Under the pieces are notes generated by a model. The model saw only the letters and a program-made list of their open reading frames with translations, did not search any database and was not told the DNA's origin. 35,072 nt of DNA, taken from assembly GCA_903936565.1 (NCBI GenBank), contig CAIZVZ010000011.1, positions 1 through 35,072 of the forward strand, given 5' to 3'. This document shows, in pieces, positions 10,773 through 30,253 of this stretch. This DNA comes from an uncultured bacterium. GTDB taxonomy: Bacteria > Patescibacteriota > Minisyncoccia > Phycocordibacterales > CAIZLB01. The position numbers were made by a program, and so were the translations under genes. Every line of letters begins with the position of its first letter. Within the stretch, counting starts at the first letter, position 1.

Positions 10773-11759
10773 TTATTCTTTAAGGTCAAGACCTAGAGAA
10801 CTAAGAAGGGTTTTGATTTCTTCTAGTCCTTTGTTTCCTAATCCTTCAATATCAAGAATATCTTTTTCCTTCTTACGAATAAGACCTCCGATAGTTCTGA
10901 TATTTGCATTTACAAGAGCATTTGTTGTTCTTTGAGATAGATCGATTGATTCGATACGTGTCTTAAGAGCGTCATCAAGTGCCTCTTTGTCTTCTAGTGT
11001 CGCAACCTTTGAAGATTCTTCAGCTACCTCCTTCTCCTTACTATGAGCAGCGGCCTCAATTTTATCTTCTTTGAATCCAACAACAGCTCTCAATTGATTG
11101 ATCATGATTTCAATTGACTTCTCAAGTGCATCATGTGGAGTTATTGTTCCATCTGTTTGAATCATAAGAGTTAATCTATTGAAGTCAGTTCTGTCTCCAA
11201 TACGCATTTCCTCTACATCATAGTTAGCAGAAATTATAGGAGAAAAAGCAGCGTCAAGTGCAATCGCACCAATATCTACTCTTTCTTTCTCTATTTCCTC
11301 CTTTCTAACATAACCGATTCCTTGCTCCACCGTTAACTCCATGTCTATCTCTGTATCTTTATGAGTGATTGTGAATAGGTGTAGATCTGGATTTGCAAGA
11401 GTTACTTGACCCGACAATTTAATGTCTCCAGCCTTAACAACATTCTCTCCCCTAACCTTGATTGTAACAACCTGTGGTTCATCTGTTGTAAGAGCAAATC
11501 TAACTTTCTTAAGATTAAGAATGATGTTAATAACATCCTCCTTAACTCCGTCGATTGCAGAAAACTCATGAGCAACACCTGCAATCTTAACTTTTGTGAT
11601 TGCAGCACCAGTAAGGGATGAAAGAATTATACGTCTAAGAGAGTTTCCAAGAGTGTGTCCATAACCAGGGTAAAGACCCTCGATTTCATAAACTCCCTTT
11701 GAAGAAGTCTCTTCTACAATCTTTGGCTTTGATGGTAATACGATATTTGAGTTAGACAT
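10773..11759 (-). CDS. rpoA: DNA-directed RNA polymerase subunit alpha
   Basis: GHTLGNSLRRIILSSLTGAAIT, VEEMRIGDRTDFNRLTLMIQTDGTITPHDAL, C-terminal alpha-CTD RTTNALVNANIRTIGGL. Confidence 0.99.
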   Translation of the reverse strand: MSNSNIVLPSKPKIVEETSSKGVYEIEGLYPGYGHTLGNSLRRIILSSLTGAAITKVKIAGVAHEFSAIDGVKEDVINIILNLKKVRFALTTDEPQVVTIKVRGENVVKAGDIKLSGQVTLANPDLHLFTITHKDTEIDMELTVEQGIGYVRKEEIEKERVDIGAIALDAAFSPIISANYDVEEMRIGDRTDFNRLTLMIQTDGTITPHDALEKSIEIMINQLRAVVGFKEDKIEAAAHSKEKEVAEESSKVATLEDKEALDDALKTRIESIDLSQRTTNALVNANIRTIGGLIRKKEKDILDIEGLGNKGLEEIKTLLSSLGLDLKE

Positions 11760-16507: not shown

Positions 16508-16536
16508 ATTATAGCACCCAGTATGTGATTATTCAA
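16508..16536 (-). promoter_or_regulatory. Predicted promoter (-35 TTGAAT, 17 nt, -10 TATAAT), 7 nt upstream of ATG
   Basis: + strand attata 16508-16513, attcaa 16531-16536; 7 nt to start codon at 16500. Confidence 0.65.
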
Positions 16537-16587
16537 AATCATCGTTTGGATGATTCTTCAAAATTAACCAGATGCTAATAGTGAGGT

Positions 16588-16902
16588 TTAATTGAAAACC
16601 GCAGGAACTATAACTCTGCATAACGTGATCGCTGCCATTATAAATGGAATCACGACACCAAACACAGGAATTATTTTTCTGAAGCCACGTTCTTTTATGA
16701 ATCCATTTGTCCATGTAATAAAAACAAAGGTATTCACACAGATTTGTAACAAACCAGCAAACAAGCCGGATTGGACTATAGCGGGACTATACACTACCCC
16801 AAAGTATTCCAATACAAAAGGGTTGGCAATCAAGAAAAGTGAAAGGCCACAAACTCCTGAGATAACCATCCAAATTCTTGATTTTTTAAGAGTGCTTTTC
16901 AT
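16588..16902 (-). CDS. Hypothetical small integral membrane protein (about 3 TM)
   Basis: Three hydrophobic segments in 104 aa; no family recognised. Confidence 0.6.
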   Translation of the reverse strand: MKSTLKKSRIWMVISGVCGLSLFLIANPFVLEYFGVVYSPAIVQSGLFAGLLQICVNTFVFITWTNGFIKERGFRKIIPVFGVVIPFIMAAITLCRVIVPAVFN

Positions 16903-16947
16903 ATTAATAAATTAACTGTAGTTAAAATACCACAGACGTGTAGACGA

Positions 16948-18825
16948 CTACTCCAACACTGCCTTGATACGTCTAACCCCCGCAGAAACAGCTTCCTCTT
17001 TTTGGATTTTAAAGTGACCAAGCTCGCTTGTATTCTTTACGTGAGGGCCTCCACAGAATTCTTTTGAGAATGCTTCTTCTATTGTGTTACCAATATAGTA
17101 CAAAGTTACTTTATCGCCATACTTTTCACCGAAGAAGTGAAGTGCTCCTGTTTTCTCAGCTTCTTCAATTGGAAGTTCAACAACATTCACTGTTAATGCG
17201 TCAGCGATTTTTTTATTAACGATATCTTCAACTTGTTGTTTTTCCTCATCAGTCATCTTTGCTGTGTGAGCAAAGTCAAAACGTAATCTCTCAGCTGTAA
17301 TATTACTTCCCTTTTGTGAGACATGAGTTCCAAGGACCTCACGAAGTGCCTGATGTAGTAAGTGAGTAGCTGTGTGATACTTAATTGAAATATCACTCGT
17401 ATCCCCCATTCCTCCTTTGAATTTCTGACCCGCGCCAGAACGAGAAAGGTCTTGGTGCTTCTTCATTTCTTCTTCAAATGCCTCTTTGTCAACCTTAAGA
17501 CCAATCTCCCCAGCCATTTCAATTGTCATTTCAACAGGAAAGCCGTAGGTGCTAAATAGGACGAAGGCATCTTTTCCACTTATCAAATTTTCGCTTGAGT
17601 TTTTGTTTTCTCCACCTTCCACCCCCAGTTTTTTAACAATTCTATCAAACTCTTTAAGACCGTGAGAAAGTGTGTTTCTAAACTTCTGTTCTTCATTATC
17701 AATTGTAATTTTTATTGTCTCTCTTTGACGAGCAACATTTTCGTAAATATCAGCATAAGTATTTACAACCGCATCAGCAATCCAGAATAGTGAACCTTTT
17801 TTAAGTCCCAAATTATCAGCAAATCTAACAGCGCGTCGAAGAAGCCTTCTTAAGATATAGCCCTGATCAGTGTTTGATGGAATTACACCGTCAGAAATCA
17901 GCATCACAGATGTTCTGACGTGATCTGCAACAATTCTCTTTGCACGAAGTGCGTCTTTTTTACTTAAGGTTGTTGGGCTTTGAAGTTGAGCTGGGGAAGG
18001 ATTTAATTCAGCATGTTGTGTATCAATTTTTGCAAAAATTTCCTCAAAAATATCTGTATCATAAAAATTATCCTTTCCGTTTAATGCCAAACAGAATCTC
18101 TCAAATCCAGCACCTGTATCAACATTCTTATTTGCCAACTTTCCAACAATCTCGCCATCCTTCTTTTCAAATTCCATGAAGACATTATTCCAAATCTCTA
18201 CAAGCTCTTGAGTTTCCTCAGAAGCCGTCCAATATTCCTCATGAGTTAAACCTTCTGTGTGCTTACCAGTTATATCGTAAAAGATTTCTGTGTCAGCTCC
18301 ACAAGGACCATTGTCTCCTGCGCTCCACCAATTATTTTTTTCTGGAAGGAAAAAAATTCTGTTTCCCTTAACACCGTGCTTATCAAAAATTTCCTTCCAA
18401 ATAGCCGCACTTTCTTCATCCTTTGGTGCATTTTTATCACCCTCAAAACATGTCACATAAAGTCTATTTGGATCAATACCAAAACCTTCCTCCTTAGAAG
18501 TTAGAAGTTCAAAACTCCAATTAATAGATTCTTTCTTAAAATAGTCACCCAATGACCAATTACCCATCATCTCGAAGAATGTTGCATGAGTGTTGTCTCC
18601 GACTGATTCTAGGTCAATTGTTCTAACGCATTTTTGTATGCTACAAAGTCGAGTTCCAAGTGGGTGTTTTTCCCCTAATAGATATGGGACAAGGGGTTGC
18701 ATACCAGCTGTGTTGAATAAAACTGAAGGGTCATTCTCAGGGACAAGTGATGTACTAGGTAATACTGCGTGGCCTCTTTTCTCAAAAAAACCTAAATATT
18801 TTTGACGTATTTCTTTAGAATTCAT
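16948..18825 (-). CDS. alaS: Alanine--tRNA ligase, short form ending after the editing (tRNA_SAD) domain
   Basis: MNSKEIRQKYLGFFEKRGHAVLPSTSLVPENDPSVLFNTAGMQPLVPYLLG, HATFFEMMGNWSLGDYFKKESI, HTATHLLHQALREVLG, EFCGGPHVKNTSELGHFKI. Start set to Met30 of the ORF. Confidence 0.97.
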   Translation of the reverse strand: MNSKEIRQKYLGFFEKRGHAVLPSTSLVPENDPSVLFNTAGMQPLVPYLLGEKHPLGTRLCSIQKCVRTIDLESVGDNTHATFFEMMGNWSLGDYFKKESINWSFELLTSKEEGFGIDPNRLYVTCFEGDKNAPKDEESAAIWKEIFDKHGVKGNRIFFLPEKNNWWSAGDNGPCGADTEIFYDITGKHTEGLTHEEYWTASEETQELVEIWNNVFMEFEKKDGEIVGKLANKNVDTGAGFERFCLALNGKDNFYDTDIFEEIFAKIDTQHAELNPSPAQLQSPTTLSKKDALRAKRIVADHVRTSVMLISDGVIPSNTDQGYILRRLLRRAVRFADNLGLKKGSLFWIADAVVNTYADIYENVARQRETIKITIDNEEQKFRNTLSHGLKEFDRIVKKLGVEGGENKNSSENLISGKDAFVLFSTYGFPVEMTIEMAGEIGLKVDKEAFEEEMKKHQDLSRSGAGQKFKGGMGDTSDISIKYHTATHLLHQALREVLGTHVSQKGSNITAERLRFDFAHTAKMTDEEKQQVEDIVNKKIADALTVNVVELPIEEAEKTGALHFFGEKYGDKVTLYYIGNTIEEAFSKEFCGGPHVKNTSELGHFKIQKEEAVSAGVRRIKAVLE

Positions 18826-18832
18826 GTCATCT

Positions 18833-18861
18833 AATATAGCAGATTTGGGGTGGTTTGCATA
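18833..18861 (-). promoter_or_regulatory. Predicted alaS -10 (TATATT) with weak -35 (TATGCA)
   Basis: + strand aatata 18833-18838, 7 nt upstream of the alaS ATG; -35 is poor. Confidence 0.4.
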
Positions 18862-18930
18862 CTGGTGTAATACGCGCACTATGTCCGACGATAGATAATA
18901 ATTCTGCAACAAAAAAGAATATATTATTAT

Positions 18931-18963
18931 AAAATGCGCCCCGCAGTACGCATACTGCGGGGC
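18931..18963 (-). terminator. Strong intrinsic terminator of the GC-rich island gene
   Basis: 11-bp perfect stem GCCCCGCAGTA-tgcg-TACTGCGGGGC (18938-18963) followed on the minus strand by GCATTTTATAAT. Confidence 0.75.
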
Positions 18964-19005
18964 CGAAGTTCCTACAACCTCGAAAGTGACATGAGCGTAA
19001 CAGCT

Positions 19006-19803
19006 CTACGTGGCTGATTCTGCAGCGGTTATACATTGGGACAAGTCAGGATCTTTCTCATCTTTGATACCGAATAGCTCGATTTGCTTAAGGGCCATTT
19101 CAAGACGAGTGCTGAGACATTCGAGCCTTTCTTGCAAATCATCACGAGTTGTTTCATCCAGGTCGGGACATTCAACCACATGAGCAATGAGTCGCAAGAG
19201 ACTCGCTTTTTCAGCTCTCACCCTCGCGATGAGGTCCAGGGCGTGTTCAGACCCAAACAGTTCATTGTGATACCAGTAAAGGTCTTCACTCATGAGATGC
19301 CTAGTGAACGCACCTAGGTAAACTAGACCCAACTGCATTTGTTTCCGGACAAGAGCGTTATCGTCCATCTCGTCCTTTGCCTTCAGCTTCTTGTCCTTGA
19401 TGTGCCCATAGATTAGATGAAGCAACAGAATGAAAGCGATAGCGGCAAGCAGGGCCCATGCGTGAGTTTCCGTGGTTTTTTGATGCCAAGCTCCATCCTT
19501 AAGCAAGGACCGCAGAAAAAGATACAGCAGGGCCGCCCAGACGAGGTAAAGCCAAATCAGTAGGCCTTTGTACCACATGGTGATCGTTGAGAACCTGCTC
19601 CACCTGGCGGACGCGAGGAGTTCATCCTCGCATGCCTGCTTGATGTTACAGGAATATGTGTTTTCGTAGTTTGCAACGAGTTTGGGATCGATGCAATCGA
19701 CCCATTCGGTGCCAAGTGAATCGGTTGTTTTTCCTTGTGATCCATTGACCACTAATAATTCTGACATGTAGGTAATTTCTATAGCTGTGTGAAAGGACAA
19801 CAT
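19006..19803 (-). CDS. Hypothetical two-TM membrane protein, GC-rich, probably foreign
   Basis: SD-like AGGAGAG-TTCC-ATG at start; TM segments GLLIWLYLVWAALLYLFLRSLL and AWALLAAIAFILLLHLIYG; helical C-term; strong terminator downstream. Confidence 0.7.
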   Translation of the reverse strand: MLSFHTAIEITYMSELLVVNGSQGKTTDSLGTEWVDCIDPKLVANYENTYSCNIKQACEDELLASARWSRFSTITMWYKGLLIWLYLVWAALLYLFLRSLLKDGAWHQKTTETHAWALLAAIAFILLLHLIYGHIKDKKLKAKDEMDDNALVRKQMQLGLVYLGAFTRHLMSEDLYWYHNELFGSEHALDLIARVRAEKASLLRLIAHVVECPDLDETTRDDLQERLECLSTRLEMALKQIELFGIKDEKDPDLSQCITAAESAT

Positions 19804-19864
19804 GGAACTCTCCTAGATAGTAACGTATTCCAGACAAGGTCCGGATATACATCAAACAGGAGCC

Positions 19865-19941
19865 ATGCGTAATCCGGAACAGTTAGCCAAACTATTCTGC
19901 CAGAACCATAACATGAATTGCTCCGTCTGTAAATATTACCC
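19865..19941 (+). pseudogene. Possible truncated divergent ORF start (MRNPEQLAKLFCQNHNMNCSVCKYY) cut off at the pepF-like gene border
   Basis: aggagccatg: SD-like AGGAG followed by ATG; first ~25 codons lie in the GC-rich island, then the frame runs antisense into the peptidase gene. Confidence 0.35.
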
Positions 19942-21792
19942 TTATTTCCCCGCCTTCCTCACCTTGTTAACTATCGCCTCATATTTCTTAACATCATCCG
20001 AAATTGCATCAATTCCCGCTTGGATAAATTTAGGATCTGCAATATCGATTCCCGTCTTTAAGAAAATATCTCTTGGTGACATAGATTGGCCAGACCTTAG
20101 AAATTCCTCAACTTTTTCAATAAAATTATGATCTTCATTGTATTTTGCACAAAGCGCCCTACTTACAATTTGTCCTAATGCATAAGTGTAAACATAGAAG
20201 AAATATCTAAGGTGTGGAATGCCAATAAACGTATACCCATCATCTACCGTTGAAGCAAAAACAGGACCTACAAAATTCTTTGATTCTTTATAAAACATTT
20301 CAGCCATTTCTTCCTTCGATGCTCCACCATCCTTTCTAATTTTATCGTGTAGTGCTAATTCAAAATTAAAAAATGAAATCTGTCTAAAAACCGAACCTAT
20401 ATCACCCTTCATCTTTTCATCCAATAACCGTAGTCTTTCCTGATCGTTTTCTGCATTTTCAATCAAATCATCAATGACAAGTTGCTCAAAAAATGTACTG
20501 GCAACTTCAGCGACGGATATGGTGTAATCCTCATATAACACAGGCTGACCTTTTGCTAACTCTGAGTGAATAGAGTGACCCATTTCATGTGATAATGTAC
20601 AAATATCATCAATGCTTCCAATGGCATTCATTAGGACATAAGTTGGAACATTGTGACCCGGTGAACAATATGCGCCCGCTCGCTTACCTTTTCTTGGTAG
20701 AAAATCAATTTGTCCATTTTCCGCAAAAGATTTTACATAATTTGCAAACTCAGGTTTTATTTTATTAAAACTTTCAATTGTTTTACTCACTACTTCCTCC
20801 AAACTTATTTTCTTTTGTGTAGTCTTAGTAATCGGCGCATACAAGTCAGCAGAGCCCAATTTCTCCAATCCAAGTAGTTTTGCTCGAGCCTTGAAGAATC
20901 TATGAGATACCTTCATATTATCATTAATGACTTTTATGAGATTCTCTACTGTGTCCAAATCATTCTCATAACCTTCAACGGTTGCTTGATATGGTGTTTT
21001 ATAACCCCTAAGTTCATCTTCTATTTTTTTATCAGTATAAACTGCATTAAGCTCCGCTTCAGCCATGTGGCTTACCGCCTTTAAAACGGGTATAATCTTA
21101 TTTTGCAATTCATGTCTTTCTTTGAAGCCAAGTTGATGTCTAAGCATTAAAGCCTCTGATATAGGTATGTCTCTCTTTTGGAATTTAACTGTCTGAGCAT
21201 TCAAAAGCTTCTTTTGAGCATCAACCCACATTTTGTATGTTACCTGGTATTTTAAACTTAGTATTTTCTCTTCTGATTCAGACAATAGATGTTTGCCTGC
21301 TTCGAATGTTTTCTTTAAATAATATTTATAAGGTGCAAAAGATTTGTCATTCAAAATTTCCTTTTGCAATTTAGAGTCTAATTTGGAAAGTGAAAGTTCA
21401 AAGAAAATTATTTCATTTTCTGCTTTTATAATTCTTTGAGTCAAGAGACTTGTTCTTGATTTTCTTTCTTGGTTAGAAGAGTCTGCGTCATTCAATTTTG
21501 TTAAATACCAAATACACTTAGCAAAACCAGCTTCATCCTGCATTTTTTCCCAATCTTTCATCGCGCTCAAGATTGTTTTAGTAGAGCTTAAGAATTTCTT
21601 ATTTGAATACTTTTTAGCAAAAGCATTTCGTCTATCTTCCATCACTTTAATTTCTGCTTCAATCTTTGGGTCTTTGTCTCCACTGTATAATGCTGAAAAA
21701 TCCCATTCAGTTTTAAATGCGAATTTTTTAAGTTTAAGAGAAGTGTCAGCTTTTATCTTTGTGTTTTTACTTGTAGTTTTACCTTTATTCAT
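19942..21792 (-). CDS. Oligoendopeptidase F-like M3 family metallopeptidase
   Basis: HEMGHSIHSELAKGQ (HExxH), YCSPGHNVPTYVLMN, ISVAEVASTFFEQLV; ATG at 21792 preferred over TTG at 21798. Confidence 0.93.
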   Translation of the reverse strand: MNKGKTTSKNTKIKADTSLKLKKFAFKTEWDFSALYSGDKDPKIEAEIKVMEDRRNAFAKKYSNKKFLSSTKTILSAMKDWEKMQDEAGFAKCIWYLTKLNDADSSNQERKSRTSLLTQRIIKAENEIIFFELSLSKLDSKLQKEILNDKSFAPYKYYLKKTFEAGKHLLSESEEKILSLKYQVTYKMWVDAQKKLLNAQTVKFQKRDIPISEALMLRHQLGFKERHELQNKIIPVLKAVSHMAEAELNAVYTDKKIEDELRGYKTPYQATVEGYENDLDTVENLIKVINDNMKVSHRFFKARAKLLGLEKLGSADLYAPITKTTQKKISLEEVVSKTIESFNKIKPEFANYVKSFAENGQIDFLPRKGKRAGAYCSPGHNVPTYVLMNAIGSIDDICTLSHEMGHSIHSELAKGQPVLYEDYTISVAEVASTFFEQLVIDDLIENAENDQERLRLLDEKMKGDIGSVFRQISFFNFELALHDKIRKDGGASKEEMAEMFYKESKNFVGPVFASTVDDGYTFIGIPHLRYFFYVYTYALGQIVSRALCAKYNEDHNFIEKVEEFLRSGQSMSPRDIFLKTGIDIADPKFIQAGIDAISDDVKKYEAIVNKVRKAGK

Positions 21793-21830
21793 TGGCAAAT
21801 AATAGCAGATTAGGGTGGAAATTCAAAGTA

Positions 21831-28180: not shown

Positions 28181-28308
28181 ATGGGTTATACACATTCTAG
28201 GACAAACATCCGATGGTTATGTATAATAATGTATCAATATCATGTACTCATAATAAGGTTGTCTCATATTTACTTCTCTTCAGTTATAATAAGACCCATC
28301 TCAATAGA

Positions 28309-29145
28309 CTATTTTGAATCAGATAAACGGACTGCTTCATTTATTAAATCACTAATCAGACGAAGTTGATTATAAGCCCTATTGTAATTATTGAATGAAT
28401 ATTCAGCTTCGTTTCCTACTTCAAATACATAATCATCTCCCCCATCATCCATATCTCTAGGAGTATTTTCTTTAGCCCTTTTTACCAAATCATTATATTC
28501 AATCTCTAGCTCCACCCTTAATTCATCATCGTCTTTACCAGGTTCACGTTCCTCAGGGTATCTATCGTAATAAGTAAGTACACTTTCGTAAAACTTCTCA
28601 GGACCCATATCAAGTAGAGACTTATAAACATCGTAACGTTGTCTACCGTTTGACGCAGACTCAAGGAAGGATAGCCTTAATTCGTAGATAAATTTAAGTC
28701 TATCTTCTTCTGGTAAAGACAAAGCCCCATCCACCATCTCTTGATAAGGCATAGTGTATGGCATATCAGGAGCAGTTGAACAATATAGATACTGAATATA
28801 CAGAGCCTGGTCAGTTGGTCTACCTACAAAACATGGAATGCAAAGGTCTGGGTCATGACAAATGGCAGCTTGTTCTTTATCGTAGCCATGAAGCACAAGA
28901 GCATCGTAAGCCTTAATCCAATTCAAAATTGAACTATCAATACAAGCACGCAATTCTTCTAAATCGGCTGGGAAAGTCTCAGGGAGTTTTGGTAATTCAT
29001 TTGAAGAGCCAGGGTCCCCATCTTTTGTTTCGTCCGTATTTTCCTCAATTACTTTTCCAAGATATCTACGAATATTCGTTTGCAGTATTTCATATTTATA
29101 CATTCTTGTATTAAATACCTCTTCTGCCTGTTTTGGTTCACTCAT
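28309..29145 (-). CDS. Hypothetical acidic soluble protein
   Basis: Long ORF; start at MSEPKQAEE preferred (TATAAT at 29155-29160 lies just upstream); no family recognised. Confidence 0.6.
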   Translation of the reverse strand: MSEPKQAEEVFNTRMYKYEILQTNIRRYLGKVIEENTDETKDGDPGSSNELPKLPETFPADLEELRACIDSSILNWIKAYDALVLHGYDKEQAAICHDPDLCIPCFVGRPTDQALYIQYLYCSTAPDMPYTMPYQEMVDGALSLPEEDRLKFIYELRLSFLESASNGRQRYDVYKSLLDMGPEKFYESVLTYYDRYPEEREPGKDDDELRVELEIEYNDLVKRAKENTPRDMDDGGDDYVFEVGNEAEYSFNNYNRAYNQLRLISDLINEAVRLSDSK

Positions 29146-29155
29146 ATGAGAAATA

Positions 29156-30253
29156 TTATATCTTAAACTCAATCACATCGCCATCCTTAACTACATATTC
29201 TTTTCCCTCGGTTCTCACTAATCCCTTCTCTCTAGCGGCACCATATGATCCAGCCCCTAGTAAATCTTTCCAAAATACAATTTCCGCTCTAATGAATTTA
29301 TCTTTGAAGTCTGTGTGAATTGCCATTCCAGCAACAGGCGCAGTTGAACCTTTTGCAATTGTCCAAGCTCTTGTTTCAACAACTCCGGTTGTAAAATAAG
29401 TTTCAAGGTCCAACAGTTCATACCCTTTCTTAATCAACAAATCAACGCCATCGTCATGCGCACCAAGCTCTTTTCTAAATATTATTTTATCCTCCCCTTC
29501 TAGGTCCTTCAATTCGTGTTCGATTCCAGCATCAACGATAGTCCACTTAGCCTTTTGCTCATCCAAGAATTTCATAAGCTCATTCCATCTTTCATCTTTT
29601 ACTTCGTCCAAATTCTTTCCGCCTGCCTTTTTATTTAGAATGTACATTATCGGCTTCATGCTCAAAAGATGTAGGCCTTGGACAATTTCTTTTTCCTCAT
29701 CTGTTAGATCAAGAGTTGACGCTAATTGCGCTTCCTCAAGTGAATGAGCAAGCTTTTGTAAAACCTCTTTCTCCGCAATAGCTAATTTATCACCCCTCTT
29801 TGCTCCGCTCTCTACTCCAACAAGCCGCTTAGATACAGTCTGCTGATCAGCTAAAATTAGCTCAAGGTTTATTACCTCAATATCACGCTTTGGATTAATA
29901 GAACCATCAACGTGAATTACGTTTGCATCTTCAAAAATTCTAACGACCTCTGCAATAGCATCAGTCTCTCTAATATGAGCCAAAAACTTATTTCCCAATC
30001 CTGACCCCTCAGATGCTCCTTTAACAAGACCTGCAATGTCCACAAATTCAATTGCTGCGGGTATTGTCTTTTGAGTCTTGGAAAACTCTGCAAGCTGGTA
30101 TAAACGCTCGTCTGGGACAGGCACAACCCCAACAGAAGGGTCTATGGTGCAGAATGGATAATTCTCCGCAGGAACTGACTTTTTGGTCAATGCATTAAAT
30201 AACGTAGATTTACCTACGTTTGGGAGACCGACGATGCCGATGGATAATTTCAT
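29156..30253 (-). CDS. ychF: Redox-regulated/ribosome-binding GTPase-family ATPase YchF
   Basis: [83 protein letters not shown]-terminal TGS domain. Confidence 0.98.

Follow-up and report, generated by a model that had tools for sequence, protein, structure and literature searches.

Accessory-gene hot spots between conserved genes are a general feature of bacterial genomes, and integron gene cassettes are one-gene units that are able to stand in tandem and turn over. Streamlined symbiotic bacteria, on the other side, are thought to shed genes. Absence of CCUCC combined with scarce Shine-Dalgarno (SD) sequences has been published for several candidate phyla, among them Wolfebacteria and Campbellbacteria (PMC10783764), and targets of diversity-generating retroelements (DGRs) in candidate phyla bacteria are covered in the literature (e.g. 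PMC8144416).

The locus described here lies in a 35,072-nt stretch of DNA (the window) from an uncultured member of Patescibacteriota with a 1.04-Mb draft genome in 21 contigs (relatives, 0.4–2 Mb). The genome size, the short AlaS and the relatives suggest a Patescibacteria-like organism. A gene encoding an M3-family oligoendopeptidase (pepF-like; 19942..21798, minus strand; start uncertain), identified by synteny and by matches to TIGR02290 and TIGR00181 that fall short of the curated thresholds, is followed on the same strand by a short form of alaS (16948..18825, minus strand; supported by NF002436, its start and synteny), the ATG of which is conserved in sister species (MNSKEIRQ). The island between them (18937-19941) has a G+C content of 47.8%, compared with 36.7% for the remainder of the window, which bears out the sharp change in composition that the original prediction had read from single lines of sequence. 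On recounting, the 60-nt lines at 19201 and 19501 held 34/60 and 32/60 G+C and those at 20041 and 21241 held 23/60 and 20/60, off by at most one from the earlier counts of 34, 33, 24 and 20. The GC3 of the 265-codon ORF in the island is 0.53 (G+C at the three codon positions: 0.54, 0.36 and 0.53), versus 0.19–0.37 for the remaining window ORFs of at least 150 aa. Among 247 ORFs in a 272-kb sample of the same genome, from which the own-genome figures were drawn, its GC3 ranks 8th, so that the ORF is an outlier, not unique. The comparison of codon usage proposed earlier placed the gene outside the native range: in a codon model, the score of which largely reflects GC3 for this gene, it scored +0.17 per codon toward the GC-rich set against −0.14 for native genes (sd 0.05, maximum −0.015), that is, about 6 sd beyond them. 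The 265-aa gene is compositionally foreign to its host genome.

In all five same-genus genomes compared (G001–G005), pepF adjoins alaS. The spacers of G002 and G003 measure only some tens of nucleotides and hold no gene, while that of G004 (~450 nt) has an ORF of ~55-62 aa (MIHEEN...; 40-62 aa for this type of ORF overall), that of G001 (~470 nt) an ORF of 83-91 aa (MSSSTLDTL...), and that of G005 (~1 kb) relatives of the G004-type and G001-type ORFs in tandem. Among 61 genomes, the 83-aa protein occurs in G001 and G005 only. The spacer in the window is 1.1 kb long, with ~1,050 bp of it unique relative to the sisters, and the interval comparison delimits an inserted unit (18866..19915, minus strand) that has no counterpart at the site in the five sister species. 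On the alaS side, homology with the sisters resumes at ~18865, where a conserved alaS upstream region common to them begins (18825..18865, minus strand; 62/66 to G004 including the gene start). Immediately behind the pepF stop, 26 nt of the sisters' spacer survive as a remnant (19916..19941, minus strand); they match the sequence behind the first unit of G005 at 22/26 positions (19/26 to G004), and none of 500 shuffles in one test and none of 200 in another did as well. The alignment of this interval in relatives, also proposed earlier, thus found no gene or different genes in the five sisters, and the same gene at the same site in none of them. Within the genus, the pepF-alaS interval is a site at which single orphan genes turn over; this nature of the site, and the apparent membership of the gene in a genome-scattered set, had been overlooked. 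In two further stretches of the window, 16518-16958 (439 vs 935 nt) and 28206-29160 (953 vs 1398 nt), the length is not that of the counterpart in sister G004; G+C is not raised in either.

Just upstream of the ATG of the 265-aa gene, an SD-like AGGAG is found within CTAGGAGAG (19808..19816, minus strand). AGGAG or GGAG precedes this gene only among the 26 window genes checked (0/25 of the others), in agreement with the earlier description of its SD as unlike those of the neighbours. A hairpin scan located an intrinsic terminator (18938..18963, minus strand) with an 11-bp stem containing eight G-C pairs and a T-rich tail. At −21.3 kcal/mol it is the most stable T-tailed hairpin in the window, as had been claimed; a longer, AT-rich 15-bp hairpin at 584-617 reaches −17.9 kcal/mol. 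The claim that the unit brought its own promoter did not hold up equally well. The sole promoter candidate on the strand of the gene is a weak one, TTTACA-17-TATGGT with TG before the −10 (19905..19933, minus strand), from a motif scan that performed no better than chance (2 found, 3.1 expected), and its −35 falls within sequence that probably predates the insertion. With the 5′ end assumed from this weak −10 candidate, the leader would comprise ~95 nt (19804..19898, minus strand) and is moderately structured (z −2.4).

The 16S gene of the same genome reads AAGTCGTAACAAGG and then CACGGCTAGCGGAAGCTGGTCGTGGAACAATTCAATTTG, without CCTCC (3′ tail at L052 ~11030-11087, contig C5, minus strand). 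The segment AAGTCGTAACAAGG is carried by 45 of the 61 genomes searched, none with CCTCC 25-40 nt behind it, and CCTCC is missing from all 30 16S tails read of order relatives (loci L145-L174). Among the native ATG genes of at least 200 aa in the own-genome sample, 0/125 have an SD core. Given a 16S without CCTCC and native genes without SD, the AGGAG of the 265-aa gene is probably a relic of a donor, and chance is by our own estimate a very improbable source of it. The missing anti-Shine-Dalgarno in this order also offers a way to recognise recently imported genes. The 16S gene itself is seemingly interrupted after CTTGTACTCAC (L052 11100-11700, contig C5, minus strand), where 11356-11428 matches a group II intron domain, and the conserved GCCCGTC segment resumes further on.

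The orphan ORF (19006..19803, minus strand) was described by its translation, GC3, hydropathy, open run and lack of a homologue. Its predicted product of 30.4 kDa (pI 5.3) has two hydrophobic TM segments by hydropathy, at residues ~79-101 and ~113-135, the second of which is followed immediately by five positive residues that suggest that the C-terminal part is cytoplasmic; this part is acidic and helical. The original prediction of a two-TM protein without a recognised family agrees with our searches, since no relative was detected in Pfam, PHROGs, NCBIfam, PADLOC, PDB sequences, viral contigs, phages, plasmids or genome contigs, and the protein is absent from 61 relatives and 380 phylum genomes. 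No Pfam or PADLOC profile matched up to E 5, and a PHROGs match was very weak (E 0.13). Two phylum-level matches with E 0.003-0.007 were discarded as ~30%-identity fragments, one of them with internal stops. The suggested structure search gave no family either: the AlphaFold single-sequence model is all-helical but poor (pLDDT 52), and Foldseek with this model returned nothing below E 0.38. The product probably sits in the membrane with its N and C termini on the cytoplasmic side, where the acidic helical C-terminal part would act. SLATT-type two-TM effectors, which we take to be a lead, also have two TM helices and then a cytoplasmic helical part; they differ in that the 265-aa protein has no match in Pfam or PADLOC at the threshold given above. 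An accessory role, e.g. in host-cell contact or phage conflict, is a guess that we put forward only tentatively.

Given the differing intervals of the sisters and a codon usage ~6 sd off that of native genes, the proposed insertion of a foreign one-gene unit between two housekeeping genes is upheld, and we assign a probability of roughly 0.7 to the full explanation that the island represents a one-gene unit gained by horizontal transfer at the variable pepF-alaS site. Acquisition taken by itself is very probable. No donor or relative outside the lineage was found in the libraries, the 61 relatives or the 380 phylum genomes, and the horizontal origin is hence based on composition and distribution. 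The source would be a GC-richer donor, possibly one that uses SD initiation. The borders show no convincing target duplication or terminal repeat, and no mobility gene is present; because no repeats or integrase were found, the unit may have entered by non-site-specific recombination. In the simplest history, an older unit would have been deleted and the new one placed beside its spacer remnant. The terminator may serve as an insulator of alaS, which would allow the unit to be kept or lost at little cost.

Alternatively, the gene could derive from a phage, plasmid or integrative element, as cargo or as a remnant, in keeping with a self-contained gene with a terminator and with the very weak PHROGs match; we consider this unlikely, because phages, plasmids and viral contigs contained no relative and neither an integrase nor repeats were found at the site. 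It is also improbable that an ancestral gene of the genus was lost in all sampled sisters. Just six genomes of the genus have been sampled and losses are common in streamlined genomes, but several independent losses would be required, including one in the closest sister G004, whose insert is shared with the more distant G005, and the foreign GC3 and codon usage of the gene argue against such an ancestry.

The acquired unit has possible counterparts elsewhere in the genome. In the 272-kb sample, ~7 further GC-rich ORFs that look coding are found singly among other genes; most are preceded by a promoter-like sequence and followed by a GC-rich hairpin. One insert of 848 bp and 50% G+C corresponds to 26 bp in sister G004, and G004 has a reciprocal 675-bp insert relative to this genome. 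Ten such proteins, drawn from this genome and its sisters, were compared with Pfam, which matched one, by a PEP-CTERM motif. The orphan with this sorting motif (L053 17100-17738, contig C6; Pfam E 0.0003) is unexpected in so small a genome. A strict promoter-boxA pattern, TTGAC-N15-21-TANNNT-N3-18-GTTCYTT (a looser pattern was dropped), occurs 9 times in the genome versus 2 for the reversed control, and 45 versus 12 times in six genomes of the genus. An ORF of at least 60 aa follows 26 of the 28 hits read, which are a partial choice, with a mean GC3 of 0.51; an SD core is present in 1/26 genes of this boxA set. The 90 nt after GTTCYTT fold beyond shuffles with a mean z of −3.1 (n = 28), versus −0.5 before native genes (n = 59; p 2e-5). 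Across the genus, the leader that recurs before GC-rich orphans consists of the TTGAC promoter, GTTCYTT, a long hairpin and often a CA-rich stretch before the ATG (loci L048, L052, L058, L086, L129-L144). GTTCYTT resembles the boxA of rRNA leaders, and this likeness suggests that it may act in antitermination. In the wider phylum, the motif count is often near that of the control, with exceptions, and the set may accordingly have a patchy distribution.

The strict pattern has no match on contig C11, the contig of the window. The leader z of the 265-aa gene (−2.4) can be set beside the mean of the boxA set (−3.1) and of the control (−0.5), and the gene fits the GC-rich codon usage of the set. 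Accordingly, it belongs to the set by codon usage, perhaps by leader structure and not by boxA, and lacking a boxA it is not filed under the boxA set but called a foreign unit of one gene that occupies a turnover site. A ~90-nt 3′ end with a terminator recurs, in this genome and its sisters, in orphan genes whose ORFs differ (L052 16883-16976, L086/L092, L088, L090, L091). Two orphan genes of this genome have a 94-nt 3′ end in common, which is absent from the 265-aa gene; shared 3′ ends suggest modular reuse. In sister G004, a DGR (L063 86-2646, contig C2) has a variable repeat that ends a GC-rich orphan and a template repeat behind it; between the two, 14 of 112 positions are mismatched, almost always where the template has an adenine, and a reverse-transcriptase-like ORF containing YADD lies at 1840-2646. 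In the literature covered by our search, no description of such gene sets was found.

Could these units be integron-like gene cassettes moved by a site-specific recombinase? Single-gene units, their tandem arrangement in G005 and turnover at one site would fit, but no integron integrase over the cut-off was found in this genome and 14 relatives, the only matches being Xer-like, as in control genomes, and the units are dispersed rather than gathered in one array, which makes this explanation very improbable. An assembly or binning chimera, in which foreign DNA was joined in silico between pepF and alaS, was part of the original prediction and would explain why the composition shifts abruptly at both borders. 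It hardly deserves credence, because the borders adjoin a remnant of the sisters' spacer on one side and conserved homology on the other, and independent MAGs carry other inserts at the pepF-alaS site; in addition, both flanks are the expected, conserved neighbours, and similarly composed genes are found within other contigs of this genome as well as in sister species. That the island encodes a structured RNA or a chance ORF rather than a protein is scarcely credible: it has a structured leader and a terminator, and no homologue able to show coding constraint, but its open run is longer than in all 2000 dinucleotide shuffles, its three codon positions differ in G+C, and an Rfam scan of the pepF-alaS interval and the window gave nothing, with no match up to E 1.

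The acquired unit at the pepF-alaS site points to a rapid turnover of individual orphan genes at a position flanked by core genes, in an organism in which gene shedding would be expected. Similar genes occur across the genus, many with a common leader design, and this wider set is a more interesting lead than the single 265-aa gene. If the set is real, it would hint at how such cells come by new surface, host-interaction or defence genes.

In comparison with accessory-gene hot spots, the site has the same constant neighbours, differing or absent cargo, foreign composition and lack of known relatives, but here a unit consists of one gene plus a terminator of its own, the genome measures 1 Mb, and the window site is without a mobility gene or tRNA. 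As in the anti-SD-less organisms described before (PMC10783764), CCTCC is missing from the 16S rRNA of this genome and of the 30 order relatives read, and native genes carry no SD; the difference is that the trait is used here as a test of foreignness, the AGGAG being unpairable with host rRNA in the usual way. DGR targets of candidate phyla have a parallel in the GC-rich orphan of G004, with its variable repeat, template repeat and reverse-transcriptase ORF, whereas no such repeat lies near the 265-aa gene. With integron cassettes, the genus units share one-gene size, tandem arrangement in G005 and turnover; they differ in that they have no integron integrase and no shared recombination site was found for them, are dispersed and often have their own promoter and terminator. 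As a speculation, rather doubtful as a whole, the 265-aa gene may belong to a dispersed repertoire of one-gene cassettes in an order without anti-Shine-Dalgarno, each with a promoter of its own, in many cases a boxA-like antitermination element and a long leader hairpin, a GC-rich orphan (in one sister a DGR target) and a GC-rich terminator, which would turn over between housekeeping genes free of any integrase and so form a dispersed counterpart of integron cassettes.
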